A stretch of 64,000 bases of DNA from Seiridium cupressi. Its lineage: Eukaryota > Ascomycota > Sordariomycetes > Amphisphaeriales > Sporocadaceae. The stretch is taken from the NCBI GenBank assembly GCA_036674765.1, contig JARVKI010000059.1:124001-188000 (forward strand). Reading direction: 5' to 3'. The position numbers and the translations under genes are program-made. Numbering within the stretch: position 1 is the stretch's first letter; each line of letters starts with the position of its first letter. The notes under the pieces are model-generated. The model was not told the origin of the DNA. It saw nothing but the letters and a program-made list of their open reading frames with translations, and searched no databases. Shown here one piece after another: positions 1,614 through 57,070 of the stretch.

Positions 1614-3488
1614 ATGGATTCTTCCTGGCTCGATCCTTCCGTGGCCGCACAACTAACGTTCGGCGTGCTCCCAGATCAGACCAGCCAACTACAGTCGCCA
1701 ATCAGCGGGCCTTCTGCGCAACGGTCTGATAGCCACTGGGACGTCTGCGCGATGAGCTATCAGCCGCAACAAGGCGCCGGCTGGGCCATGACTCCCAATG
1801 CCTATACTCGATCTGACCCTCTTCGGACGTCTCAAAGCAGCTCCTCGTACGTATGAGTTCAGTGAAGCCAAGCTGCAGGAAAAGCTGACCTGACCTCGAT
1901 GGCAGCTCTCGTTACGATCAGTATCAGCTACGGGTTTTACAACATCCCAAAGACGGCAAAGTCGCAGTTGGCAAGGAAAAAGGTCAGTTCCAGGCCTGCT
2001 TCACTGATAGGTTTCTTTCCATATTGCTAATTGTGGGGCCAGACCGAAAACCCCTTGATCCTCCGCCATTAGTCGAGCTGGCCGTTGACCGGGGCCCAGA
2101 TTCTTCGACATACCTACAAAGTGAGTGCACAGAGTCCCCTCGACAGCGACGTCGACAATCCGAGGCGGCGAGCCAACCAAGCTAACGATCCAGCAGGTCC
2201 GTACACTATGGTGCTTGCTTACCTGGAGCCGGCTTCGGGTAAGGAGGTCAGCGAAAAGGATGGGAAAGCGATAGGGTCAAATCTCACGGGGACTACGGCA
2301 TCTTCTCTACATCGGGTCAAGAACATGGAAAACAAGGACATTGCAGCTTTCGTATTTCCAGATCTGGCTGTCAAAGTCGAAGGCTCATTCAGGCTGCGCT
2401 TTGTCCTCATGGTCATGGAAGAGAACGGTATGGAAGTAGGCACGTGGCTCACCATCACCGAGTGCTACTCTGATGTCTTCACCGTGCATAGCGCTCGGTC
2501 GTTTCCTGGCATGGCGGAATCGACATCTCTGACAAGAATGTTCGCGGATCAAGGGATACGTCTCAGATTGAGGAAGGACTCACGCCAGCTAACAACGAAG
2601 AAGCAGAACCACAGCGCGGCGTACCGGCTAGCCGGGAAGCGATCCCGCGAAATAGACAATACAGCGCCCGATGACGATATTCCCTCAGCCGTGCACCGCC
2701 GACCGATTGCAAGTCCAGACCGGCCATATTTCGAGGGTCAGGGATACGGCGAGGTATCCGATTCGAAACGACAGCGCACGACATCCGCAGGGCAAGGCGC
2801 TTATTCGCTGCGTCATAACCTGCCTGCCAGCCTGTCTTTCTCTTACTCTGGCATAGGATCGATGGGCGTCCAACAAGGGGCTTTCCTCACAACTGGCGAG
2901 TCCGAGTCTCCGATTTATACCTCAAGTTACCATACTCGCGACATATTCGGCTCGGGCATGACACCAACTGGATTACCGCGTAGTGGTTCAGCAAGGCTCG
3001 ACCCTCAGATTCCATCTTATCAAGGGGATGTTTTTGCGTCTCCCAACAATCAAGCGCCGGCCGACCCGTACTCCTATTCGAACGCGCCCGGCGACGCATC
3101 CGCTCTGCAACAACAGAACCAGCCGCCCATGGGATACTATCACGGGAGCGATGCGCACCTGCCCACGTTGAACCGATCTTTACTTCCAGGCAGTGCGCGC
3201 TTGAATACATCCCCCCAGGCGAATCCCCAGGCCACCCATACTCCCGTCAGCAGCACCGGTTCCCCTGTCGATCCAGCCTCCTACACCCATACAGGAACAC
3301 ACTTCTCCTCTGGGTACATGGCGCAAGCCAGTGGCTCGTTTGATCAAGGAACTTTGAGGAACCATGGCATATCGACTCCTGTCACCGGAAATATGTCAAC
3401 AGACCAAACGCAGAGCTCGTTCGTACAGGGCCATCACATGCCTGTTGGAGAGCCTTTCGACTATCCAAAGGCAACGCATGGTATATAA
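1614..3488 (+). CDS. vosA-like: Velvet-domain regulator, VosA-type
   Basis: Four exons by frame and consensus: 1614-1846, 1906-1982, 2043-2120, 2197-3488 (559 aa). The velvet domain spans about residues 80-257. It shows the DRKPLDPPPLVEL block, a YLQSPY block across the third intron, SSLHRVKN, FVFPDLAVKVEGSFRLRF and the closing ADQGIRLRLRK. This block order fits VosA better than VelB, which carries a long insertion inside the domain, or VeA. After the domain comes a basic stretch (KRSREID, near residue 278) that may be a nuclear signal. A long Ser/Pro/Gln/Tyr-rich tail follows, like the activation-type tail of VosA. VosA proteins are nuclear DNA-binding regulators that act with VelB in spore maturation and secondary metabolism. 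VelC is the main alternative assignment. The start is the first ATG in frame with the domain, and every intron junction preserves the frame. Confidence 0.85.
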
Positions 3489-17536: not shown

Positions 17537-18764
17537 ATGGCTTCTCTTTCCCCTAAAATACGCATCGCAATCATCGGCGCCGGCCGTATTGGACCCCGGC
17601 AGTAAGCAATTTTTCAGAGTTATTTCTTGCCCCGTATAGCCTGTTTCGGAAGTTTACTGGTTCTGAATTGAGTCTTTCCGCTCTTAAAACATAGCTTCTA
17701 ACTCCCAATAACTATCCAAGCATATTTAAGGAGCAATCACTGACTCCAGGTGTTATAGTGCTCAAGCAGTTATCAAGAGTGAAAATGCAGAGTTGGTCGC
17801 GATTGTTGAGCCGACTAAGGTGGGAGAGCAGATAGCTGCGACGTTGAAGGTCGTTCATTACCGATCAGTGAATGACCTGATACGATTTTCGCATACTGTA
17901 GATGGTGCCATCATCTGTACACCGAATCATACCCACGTACCCTTAAGCCAGGAGTTGTCCGCAGCTGGAATTCATATTCTTGTAGAAAAGCCCATCAGCA
18001 CGGACATATCCAGTGGCAAAGAACTCCTTAGCCAGTTGGAACAAACGAACGTCAAAGTCCTGGTGGGCCATCATCGCCGCTTCAATCCGTTTATGGTCAC
18101 TGCGAAGAAGATTGTCGCGTCTGGCGAGCTCGGGCGCATCATAGGAGTGAATGGCCTTTGGGCGCTATACAAGCCACCCCAGTACTTCGACCCGCCGAGG
18201 GACTGGAGGAGACATACGACGGGCGGTGTAGTGCTCATTAATATGGTACATGAGGTAGACCTCTTACATCACTTGCTTGGTCCCATCAGCACAGTCCATG
18301 GAGAAAGGACTGTATCACAGCGCGGCTTCGAAGCCGAGGAGGGCGCTGCGCTCACGTTGAGGTTCCGGTCTGGTGCCGTTGGGAGTTTTTTCCTATGTGA
18401 CACCGTGCCATCGCCATGGAATTTTGAGTCAGGTACCGGTGAAAACCCCACGATACCCACAACGGGCCAGGACTTTTATCGCATCTTCGGTACTGAGGCA
18501 TCGCTGAGCGTACCAGATATGTCAGTTTGGTCATACCACGGGACACAAAAGTCTTGGAACTCAGAACTAGTAAGAGACTCGGCAGAAGTATCTACTGGCG
18601 TGCCTTTCGAACTGCAAGTGAATCATTTCTGCAAAGTAATACGTGGCGAAGAAACCCCCAGTTGTACTGCTCAGGTTGGTCTGGCTGCCTTGATCGTGTG
18701 CCAGGCCATTAAAGAGGCACTGGCCGACAATAGTACCGTAAAGGTGGAGGATTACGAATTGTAA
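17537..18764 (+). CDS. Gfo/Idh/MocA-family NAD(P)-dependent oxidoreductase
   Basis: Two exons, 17537-17601 and 17759-18764 (356 aa), split by an introner-like intron. Exon 1 carries the Rossmann GAGRIGPR motif (residues about 14-21). Joining at 17758/17759 gives GPRHAQAV, the usual family continuation. If the earlier AG at 17749 is used the frame also stays open but gives QCYSAQ, a worse match. Further marks are IICTPNHTH, the VEKPIS motif that holds the catalytic Lys, VGHHRRFNP and a C-terminal alpha/beta domain with DRxxG-like strands. The family includes myo-inositol 2-dehydrogenase, glucose-fructose oxidoreductase and dehydrogenases of other polyols or sugars; the substrate is not evident. 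No signal peptide is seen, so it is probably cytosolic. It stands alone beside a transporter relic, which may hint at a former catabolic pair. Confidence 0.88.
17602..17758 (+). mobile_element. Introner-like element, copy A (157-nt intron)
   Basis: This intron of the oxidoreductase gene is similar over its whole length to the introns at 47296-47452 and 56553-56707 (minus). Shared landmarks are the donor GTAAGCAA, GAGTTATTTC, CCCGTATAGCCTGTTT, GCTCTTAAAACAT, CAAGCAT, the branch motif ACTGACTCCAG and the end GTTATAG. Similarity stops at both splice sites (exon context CA|T). By hand alignment it is roughly 80% identical to each of the others. Confidence 0.88.
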
Positions 18765-46515: not shown

Positions 46516-48160
46516 ATGAAATACAAGATACAATCTCCCAAGATCAAGCCTCGCTTGATCATTCATGGAGGCGCCGGCAACATAAATCCCGATAAGATGT
46601 CACCGGAAAAATATGCGCAGTATCGTGAGGCGTTGACTGCTATCGTGAGTTGCGAGACCACTGCCGGTGTTTACTCAGCGCTGGACTGACCCTTTATTGA
46701 CTATGAGCAGGTATCCAGGACAAACACATATATGACGAGCTTGGAGGCTTCCAAGACAGCGTCATACCATCCCGAGGCAACATATTCCCACGCACTGGCG
46801 GTTGCAACATACGCTGTGGTATTGCTAGAGAACAACCCTCTATTTAACTCGGGCCACGGTGCAGTATTTACCCGCGATGGCATTAACGAATTGGAGGCTT
46901 CGGTCATGGTGTCGAACGGGTTCGCCAAGCGCGGCGTTGGTGTGACTGGGCTTCAGCGGGTCAAGAACCCCATCCTGCTCGCGCGAAAGATGCTGGAGCA
47001 CGGCAGAGGCGACTTGACGGGGAACGGAGAGTTGGGCTGGGAAGCAAAAATCGACCAAGGCCAGGACCTGGACATTCCCTCAGCTCAGGGGCATACGCTC
47101 ATTCATGGGCGCAGTGCGGAAATTCTCGCAGAGAAGTATGAGCTTGGTATGGTGGATCCGAGCTACTACTTCACACAAACACGCTGGGACGAACATGTGC
47201 GGGCTCTAGAGCGTGAAAAGACTGCCCGCCAAGCACGAGGAGGATCGTGGATAACTGCCACATGGAGCGCGGATGAATATCTTCCCCAGGGCACAGTAAG
47301 CAACTCTCGGAGTTATTTCATGTCCCGTATAGCCTGTTTTGGGAGTTTACTGGTTCCTAATTCAGTGTTTCTGCTCTTAAAACATGGTTTTCAACTCCCG
47401 ACAACTCATCAAGCATGTTAAAAGAAGCAAAGACTGACTCCAGATGTTGTAGTGCGGCGCCGTTGCACTTGACTCGAATGGTGTTGTATGTTGTGCAACT
47501 AGCACCGGGGGCATGACCAACAAGTTGACAGGCCGCATTGGAGACACACCGTCCATCGGTGCTGGTTTCTGGGCCGAAGAATGGGACGAAGCAGGTGATC
47601 CGTCAGGTTCCAACCGCCACCTTGGGAAGAACCAGTGGGCTGCATGGAGGCATTGTCTTGGCGGGCAAGGGCCTATCGTGGAACTGAGCAGCAACCTCAA
47701 GGGGTTACTGGCTCGATGCCTTCCTTCCCCGTTCATGTATCAGCCCTTGGGGCAGGATCGCAAGCTCGTTACTACTAGGTCTGCTGCTCTCTCGGGTACG
47801 GGGAACGGGGATTCGTTTCTTCGCGTTGCTGCAGTAAGAACTGTTGTCGGAATCGCTCGATGGACTGGCGTGACTGCGGCTGAGGCGTTGAGGCGCGTAG
47901 CGGGTCGGGATGGTGAGTTGCAGAAAAGTGCGGGCGAACGGTGGGGGAAAACCGGAGAGGGCGAAGGTGGCATGATCGGGATCGAAGCAGTAATTGTGAA
48001 AGACGCAGCAAGTGGCGAGGTGGTCGAGACACGGGGCGAGATATTGCAGGACTTTAATTGTGGAGGCATGTTCAGGGCCTGGATTGATGAGGACGGACAG
48101 CCAAGGATGAGAATCTTTGATGGTGTCAGGGACAGGGATTTTATCGACGAGAAACACTGA
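46516..48160 (+). CDS. Threonine-type (Ntn) asparaginase
   Basis: Three exons, 46516-46644, 46711-47295 and 47453-48160 (473 aa). The N-terminus has the LIIHGGAGNI block. ENNPLFNSGHGAVFT and the LEASVMVSNG loop follow. The nucleophile Thr238 lies in PQGT|CGAVALD, where autocleavage of the precursor gives alpha and beta subunits. The beta part holds ATSTGGMTNKLTGRIGD, GAGFWAEEW, SGTGNGDSFLR and GEGGMIGIEAV, the substrate-binding elements. The family hydrolyses L-asparagine or beta-aspartyl (isoaspartyl) peptides. The second intron is an introner-like element placed exactly after the catalytic Thr codon. In relatives the residue after this Thr is usually Val; here it is Cys. No signal peptide is visible, so it is likely cytosolic. 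Confidence 0.92.
47296..47452 (+). mobile_element. Introner-like element, copy B (157-nt intron)
   Basis: The second intron of the asparaginase gene has the same length and roughly 80% identity (hand alignment) to copy A at 17602-17758 and copy C at 56553-56707. It starts GTAAGCAACT, shares GAGTTATTTCATG, CCCGTATAGCCTGTTT, TTTCTGCTCTT and CAAGCATGTT, and ends at ACTGACTCCAG then ATGTTGTAG. GGGAGTT (47341-47347) and AACTCCC (47393-47399) form a perfect 7-bp inverted repeat inside it. Confidence 0.9.
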
Positions 48161-56480: not shown

Positions 56481-57070
56481 TTAAAGATTGGTTACGGGAT
56501 AGCTCTGGTCCGGCTTGACTACAGCTCCACCTGCAAGCTGCTTGTCGGTGTACTACAACACCTGGAGTCAGTGATTGCTTCTTCGAACATGCTTGGCGAG
56601 CTCTCGGGGGTCAGAAACATGTTTCAAGAGCAGAAACGCTTAACGAGAAACTGGTGGACTCCCGAAACAGGCTATACGGGCATGAAATAACTCTGGAAGT
56701 TGCTTACTGCGGGCCACACGATCTTCTTCTTGGTGTTGTCGACAACGGCGAGGGTGGTGAACCCGTTTCCAGGGCCAAATTGCCCGCTCCAGCCACTCGT
56801 TACAGTATACGGCCCGCAGGTGGCTCCAGTGCCCGAGGTCTGGCTGGCCGGCTTGCCCTTGACCACAAAGCTGCAGGCTGTTGCAGCGGCAAGGTGCGTA
56901 TCGACGGAGAAGGACCAAGTGCAGCTGGTGTCAGCCGCATCGCAGACGCGCTTCAAGCCGACAATGGTCCATTGAGGGTCCGCCCTCCTGGAGAGCCCTG
57001 GCTCAGCGGCGGGAGCTGCGAAAGCCGTGGCTGCGACGACTGCTGCAAGGAAGGTTGTGGTGAGCTGCAT
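56481..57070 (-). CDS. Small secreted protein, cell-death-inducer-like family
   Basis: Two exons on the minus strand, 57070-56708 and 56552-56481 (144 aa), split by an introner-like intron. A signal peptide covers about residues 1-19 (TTFLAAVVAATAFAAP). The mature part contains WTIVGLKRVC, DTSCTWSFSV, CGPYTVTSGWSGQFGPGNGF and TTLAVVDNTKKKIVWPA, and the second exon restores YTDKQLAGGAVVKPDQSY, which is how relatives end. Without the splice the frame runs into the element and stops after a false tail. Four cysteines suggest two disulfides. Related small secreted proteins of plant-associated ascomycetes have been reported to trigger plant cell death; I assign the family from remembered motifs, and the role here is inferred. 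It is convergent with the GH131 gene. Confidence 0.85.
56553..56707 (-). mobile_element. Introner-like element, copy C (155-nt intron)
   Basis: On the minus strand this intron reads GTAAGCAACTTCCAGAG ... ACTGACTCCAG then GTGTTGTAG and aligns end to end with copies A and B at roughly 80% (by hand). All landmarks are present: GAGTTATTTCATG, CCCGTATAGCCTGTTTC, TTTCTGCTCTT, GAAACATG, CCAAGCATGTT. The exon context is again CA|T. Confidence 0.9.

Follow-up and report, generated by a model that had tools for sequence, protein, structure and literature searches.

The genome of Seiridium cupressi harbours a family of elements that are almost certainly introner-like spliceosomal introns. Copies interrupt the coding exons of unrelated genes, end exactly at splice sites, nearly all run in the sense of the host gene, and sit preferentially between CA and TG (written CA/TG below, the slash marking the insertion point). 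Three of them fall within the window, the whole 64,000-nucleotide stretch analysed here (C59:124001-188000), where they and their surroundings are placed as follows (target-site sides and branch-point motifs as read from the sequence):

17537-17601, + strand: oxidoreductase coding exon 1, with ATG at 17537
17600-17601, + strand: 5' side of the copy A target site, CA
17602-17758, + strand: introner copy A, 157 nt, in a Gfo/Idh/MocA oxidoreductase gene; phase 2, splitting a His codon (CA/T)
17740-17744 (+), 47434-47438 (+) and 56567-56571 (-): CTGAC branch-point motif of copies A, B and C, respectively
17759-17760, + strand: 3' side of the copy A target site, TG
17759-18764, + strand: oxidoreductase coding exon 2
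46732-47295, + strand: asparaginase coding stretch 5' of copy B; the NCBI model has 50 extra residues upstream
47296-47452, + strand: introner copy B, 157 nt, in an L-asparaginase gene; phase 0 (QGT/CGAVAL)
47453-48160, + strand: asparaginase exon 3' of copy B
56553-56707, - strand: introner copy C, 155 nt, in a putative gene named small secreted protein in the original prediction

The original prediction held that introns A, B and C are homologous end to end up to their splice sites, at roughly 80% identity, and that the exons around them are unrelated. Alignment bears out the homology and its limits, the coordinates and lengths given for the three copies (157, 157 and 155 nt) were exact, and the BLASTN identities are 78-82% (A-B 81%, A-C 78%, B-C 82%; E 1.9e-29 to 1.4e-37). 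Common to all three are a GTAAGC start, a TRTAG end and CTGAC near the 3' end, and when the window was searched with a profile of the three, the next match beyond them had an E of about 1. The exons are indeed unrelated: with the elements masked in 101 sequences (the retrieved loci and the window), no DNA was shared at E<=1e-6 except one HET-paralogue exon and one repeat inside locus L047. The spliced copy A fragment matches Pfam GFO_IDH_MocA across the junction, its predicted product is 94% identical, without indel, to a Seiridium cardinale protein (the best listed match), and the residues IGPRHA are continuous across the junction in Truncatella and Pestalotiopsis relatives. The spliced copy B product equals part of a Seiridium cupressi NCBI protein, with 100% identity over its length, and this protein model thus fits the predicted splicing of copy B. 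For copy C the best upstream coding frame is phase 0 (score 19.3), and the same frame has a stop within 90 bases downstream.

The original prediction had also guessed at a large genome-wide family, with many matches at intron borders, and this proved right. The genome searched comprises 45.4 Mb in 228 contigs. Copy A found 75 candidates, of which 40 were scored; every one of these matched, and in 36 the match covered bases 1 to 157. The 20-base 3' end of the element, allowing up to 3 mismatches, occurs at 140 genome places (11 for a reversed control), and the 27-base 5' end at 104 places (0 for the control). Loci were retrieved in sets of 60 (most about 3.1 kb), 20 more, and 20 of 657 bases. 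A profile search of these loci together with the window gave 111 matches, 103 of them full length; flank counts use the 103, leaving out the 8 partial matches, and the two coding tests use 109 and 108 matches that reach the 3' end. Donors are GT in 102 of the 103 full-length copies (GTAAGC in 84) and GC in one, and every acceptor is AG (TAG in 97, CAG in 6). Near the 3' end, 100 of 103 have a CTRAY branch motif, and 51 have exactly the modal length of 157 nt. Unusual donors occur in L072:1501-1657 (GCAAGC) and L075:1501-1657 (GTCAGC). The letters of the preferred target, CATG, appear three times within the element consensus (TTTCATGCC, AAACATGGT and AAGCATGTT), possibly by chance.

Some genes or loci hold two elements. 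In L056 the copies at 1503-1657 and 1678-1835 share one transporter-like gene, and the exon between them, which would have to be spliced, measures 20 nt. Further pairs lie 0.8 and 1.5 kb apart (L020:546-682 with 1501-1655; L031:1501-1657 with 3207-3368), and our impression is that this is closer than expected at random. Rfam gave no matches on the window, the exact 5' element pattern none in viral contigs, and a masked self-comparison of 0.33 Mb, a sample of low power, no further introner family.

The copies lie in genes, and nearly all in sense. With the best coding segment within 450 bases scored, the gene-sense strand exceeded the antisense strand in 100 of 108 copies. Among the eight that leaned towards antisense, five have recognisable sense exons and L094 is plausible, leaving L089 and L084 uncertain; L013 is likewise uncertain by the coding tests. 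An initial, weaker coding test, demanding that both flanks be open and positive, was passed by 61 of 109 in sense and 17 of 109 in antisense, and the flank frames agreed independently in 78 of 109. The exact junction matters: the joint frame is open there in 90 of 103 copies, and strong coding (score >8) is seen in 55. With one exon base or two taken away, the frame stays open in 60 or 71 copies and strong coding persists in 9 or 13. Removal of three exon bases restores both, to 89 and 56. Codons at the junction are often Cys or Trp in phase 0, Met in phase 1 and His in phase 2.

Domain matches place individual copies. The five antisense-leaning copies with recognisable sense exons are L023 and L030, which interrupt Zn2Cys6 motifs, L075 in an SDR C-terminus, L077 in a transporter, and L069, which lies 3' of a multicopper-oxidase stretch. 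In L003 both flanks match DUF3237, in sense. Searched as unspliced pieces, L030 and L013 gave no Pfam match and L072 weak matches only. Among six spliced fragments, four have a Pfam match spanning the junction (Zn_clus, adh_short_C2, HET and GFO_IDH_MocA); in the other two, a GH3 match begins 3' of the junction and a transporter has no Pfam match.

Paralogues give a view of sites without the element. The HET gene at L017 matches in two pieces, and all other matches at E<=0.001 (44 of 44) cross the site uninterrupted; the transporter gene at L077 is likewise split into two matching pieces, and its site is crossed by 3 of 3 further, weak matches (E 1e-5 to 3e-4). These crossings were judged from table spans, with HET DNA spans of about three bases per residue, and some of the HET matches contain stops. 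The paralogue at L015:2351-2520, a HET-domain sequence that has an early stop and lies next to an introner-bearing locus, displays what the L017 site looks like when empty: it reads GATGCA/TGCTGC, and the occupied L017 reads GATACA/element/TGCTGT. The TG was therefore present before insertion, and nothing was duplicated or lost. Judged by these paralogues, insertion appears to be a derived gain in the two genes tested (HET and transporter).

The junctions of other copies are equally clean. No base is common to the exon end and the intron end in 65 of 67 copies, nor to the intron start and the exon start in 66 of 67, giving no sign of a target-site duplication at the borders. Duplications at small offsets were rejected as well, since across 144 combinations of offset and length the best were seen in 2 and 5 of the 67 copies, where 0.1 and 1.0, respectively, were expected. 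Alignment of the consensus ends found no inverted repeat at the termini above chance level (p 0.45).

The exon letters beside the element are strongly constrained. T follows it at +1 in 100 of 103 copies (binomial p ~5e-60 against an exon T frequency of 0.23) and G at +2 in 90; on the 5' side C stands at -2 in 70 and A at -1 in 61, with G at -1 in 2. TG is present in 88 of 103 and the full CA/TG in 41. In a small control of 33 putative ordinary introns, which a script selected in the same DNA, +1 is T in 11, TG occurs in 5 and CA/TG in 0, and G is the commonest last exon base (16). The bias does not depend on the loci retrieved: in genome-wide counts with 14-base exact matches, taken as such, T follows the 3' pattern in 39 places and another base in 1, and -1 is G in 3 places and another base in 77 (49 A, 14 C, 14 T). 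The 25 lower-scoring copies keep it too, with T at +1 in 23. The preference was missed in the original prediction, and it sets the Seiridium family apart.

As G stands at -1 in only 2 of 103 copies, selection for good splice sites does not account for the site. The letters could also have travelled with the element, and in the 80 closest pairs the -2 base matches at a rate of 0.79, against 0.42-0.51 in other identity bands, a hint of inherited flank among the closest copies. Across the family the flank letters are nearly independent of copy relatedness; this has the look of a preference for certain sites, and inheritance of the flanks from the donor copy was rejected as its explanation.

Copy-to-copy identity ranges from 51 to 99%, with a nearest-neighbour median of 90%, and terminal branches make up 85% of the tree length. 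Copy A belongs to a clade of 6 (support 0.98) nested in a clade of 65 (0.99) that includes copy B, and copy C to a clade of 25 (0.94). The nearest copy to B is L022 (94%), and the nearest copies to C are 95-97% identical to it. The closest pairs reach 99% in the clade of 6 and 97% in the clade of 25; pairs 97-99% identical in separate clades indicate that copying was recent and came from more than one source copy. In the closest pair of all, L004 and L005, one base in 157 differs and the flanks are unrelated, so that it may still be possible to observe copying. Near young copies lie degenerate relatives of the element (L048:364-500, L079:2320-2457 and L004:909-1059), which suggest that an earlier and larger layer of copies has come to resemble ordinary introns.

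Folding gave a mixed picture. The mean fold z was -1.38 for the 103 copies (27% below -2) and 0.03 for 33 ordinary introns. RNAalifold on the alignment yielded one 7-pair hairpin at -2.1 kcal/mol, with at least one double change in 3 pairs. A near-terminal stem, in which donor bases 5-9 pair with those immediately preceding AG at probabilities of about 0.6-0.7, is complete in 75 of 103 copies when G-U is allowed. Its covariation is nil (480 observed, 480.7 expected); its columns are more conserved than others (0.90 vs 0.85, p 0.004), in a structure that was derived from these same sequences. RNA end pairing gave p 0.11. A conserved RNA fold is weakly supported, with one weak alignment hairpin and a near-terminal stem that does not covary.

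As to how the copies arise, we rather favour a route through RNA: insertion linked to transcripts, by reverse splicing at selected sites. The family would create new introns by placing scarless copies of itself into coding exons of unrelated genes. Each copy carries a donor (GTAAGC), a branch point (CTGAC) and an acceptor (TTGTAG) of its own, and since these signals lie within the copy, splicing would excise it exactly and leave the protein unchanged. Copying may proceed through the spliced-out intron RNA. With CA/TG as the preferred site, this RNA would be reverse-spliced into either a transcript or the coding strand exposed during transcription; reverse transcription or repair would then turn the inserted RNA into a permanent DNA copy. 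The lack of a duplicated target and of inverted terminal repeats argues against classical DNA transposition, and the fact that nearly all tested copies lie in genes and run in sense suggests a link between insertion and transcription; together with an NTIRE-like position of the near-terminal stem, these features favour an RNA intermediate and reverse splicing. Against an RNA mechanism stand the palindromic CA/TG, as expected for a dimeric DNA integrase, its difference from the AG/G context usual for spliceosomes, and the weak support for a conserved fold (z, end pairing, end alignment, covariation). That the element is a homing spliceosomal intron, its excised RNA reverse-spliced into transcribed genes at a recognised CA/TG in a manner resembling group II retrohoming, is a tentative proposal that we hold to be possible and on the whole doubtful.

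Because CA/TG is symmetric, a blunt-cutting DNA integrase stays the main rival. A non-autonomous DNA transposon turned introner would use a duplication-free integrase that cuts bluntly at CA/TG, and splice signals at its ends would hide the insertion. The pairing of C at -2 with G at +2 and of A at -1 with T at +1 would fit an enzyme that acts on DNA as a dimer. The insertion sites of Spy transposons lie between AAA and TTT, and in the partial accounts of them that we compared these transposons are a precedent for transposition without duplication. Introner families outside the ascomycetes mostly look DNA-borne in the text of PMC9860276 available to us. We nevertheless consider this origin unlikely, given the terminal inverted repeats at chance level and the gene-bound distribution: none of the 108 scored copies was shown to be intergenic or antisense, with two or three of them uncertain. 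A Helitron was rejected as well: it would partly account for insertion between A and T, but the 5' TC and 3' CTRR ends that mark Helitrons are absent here.

Improbable to a further degree is the capture of intron RNA or cDNA at double-strand breaks, ligated in where a nuclease cuts CA/TG in transcribed genes. A break-repair model was proposed for Hypoxylaceae by Fekete and colleagues (PMC12403724), and in the part of that account compared here it requires no duplication, in agreement with the seamless, blunt junctions of Seiridium; the sequence-specific break is our addition. The model as published would lead one to expect random sites, the added version requires a CA/TG nuclease of which none is known, and breaks arise in intergenic DNA too, where no copy was recognised. 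Gene conversion that keeps old introns similar without new insertion could draw on the age of some copies, with pairwise identity down to about 51%; it is very hard to reconcile with a site empty in 44 of 44 HET and 3 of 3 transporter paralogue matches, with clades that contain close pairs between unrelated flanks, or with a common target motif, and we give it scant credence. An ordinary dispersed repeat, assembly artefact or segmental duplication has next to no probability: no supporting point was found, 103 copies end at splice sites with frames that close at the junction, the spliced copy B product is the NCBI protein, and the unrelated flanks led us to reject a repeat or segmental duplication.

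The origin of new spliceosomal introns is a long-standing question on which the Seiridium family gives a handle. Its measurable insertion rule (CA/TG, seamless, sense) is a constraint on any mechanism, and a reverse-acting spliceosome, an integrase and a nuclease make differing predictions for CA/TG. Should the homing proposal be true, nuclear intron gain in the Seiridium lineage would be site-selective and RNA-templated, and neither random insertion nor DNA transposition.

Introner-like elements were reportedly described in Dothideomycetes by van der Burgt in 2012, and the original prediction drew the parallel. Its introner-like reading stands, on the strength of many copies with exact borders, unrelated host genes, sense orientation and empty paralogue sites in two genes; the parallel, which was offered as no more than that, does not extend to the lineage, the host being Seiridium, a member of the Sporocadaceae in the Sordariomycetes. 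The Hypoxylaceae and Xylariaceae belong to the same subclass as Seiridium.

The Dothideomycete elements, treated also in Collemare 2015 (PMC4457414), are described in the passages compared as near-identical short introns in unrelated genes, seamless, in sense only, and decaying to ordinary introns (PMC8469720, PMC3443670). The Seiridium family agrees in its near-identical short introns in unrelated genes, its seamless junctions and, for nearly all copies, its sense orientation, a comparison made at the level of description. It differs in its target, CA/TG, where PMC8469720 in the part compared calls fungal sites "seemingly random" and credits van der Burgt with an AG/GY preference, and the stable folds predicted for the Dothideomycete elements are weakly matched in Seiridium. 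With the sister stwintrons and cropped sister introns of the Hypoxylaceae and Xylariaceae, as presented in parts of PMC8469720 and PMC12403724, it shares seamless, duplication-free, sense insertion, sometimes with two elements in a gene. The possible Seiridium stem, from donor position 5 to two bases before the end, is placed like NTIRE in the relevant portion of PMC12403724; their 5' NTIRE reads GUAUAAAAAC, whereas the Seiridium stem is GCAAC and does not covary. In these accounts stwintrons are a nested pair, and each Seiridium copy is one canonical intron, about 157 nt long. The [D1,2] stwintron layout, with a donor split after its first G by a second intron, was not found: the elements start directly with GTAAGC, and a G precedes them in 2 of 103 copies. 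Neighbouring nucleotide bias, extreme in Seiridium, is not reported for stwintrons in the portions of PMC8469720 and PMC12403724 compared.

Beyond the fungi, the DNA-transposon introners of algae and protists resemble the Seiridium family in their large size, recent bursts and element-borne splice signals (PMC9860276, in part; Huff and colleagues, as cited); set against those descriptions, Seiridium shows no duplication, no significant inverted repeats and no recognised intergenic copy, and has both splice sites inside the element. The same source, in the text available, treats ascomycete introners as an outlier group without transposon marks (PMC9860276). Micromonas introner elements are likewise full-length intron copies in genes for which reverse splicing was proposed; in the passages of PMC3879977 compared, no sequence motif correlated with element presence, and typical donors read AG/GYGCGT with a G before the intron, the opposite of the Seiridium family. 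Among the matches listed in our literature search no introner report concerned Sporocadaceae or Seiridium; subscription journals and the supplements of a 2022 survey, mostly outside that search, may list one. Within the portions of the texts compared, the Seiridium family thus represents a new lineage, the Sporocadaceae, for the known introner-like phenomenon, and brings to it a CA/TG rule that those texts do not contain.
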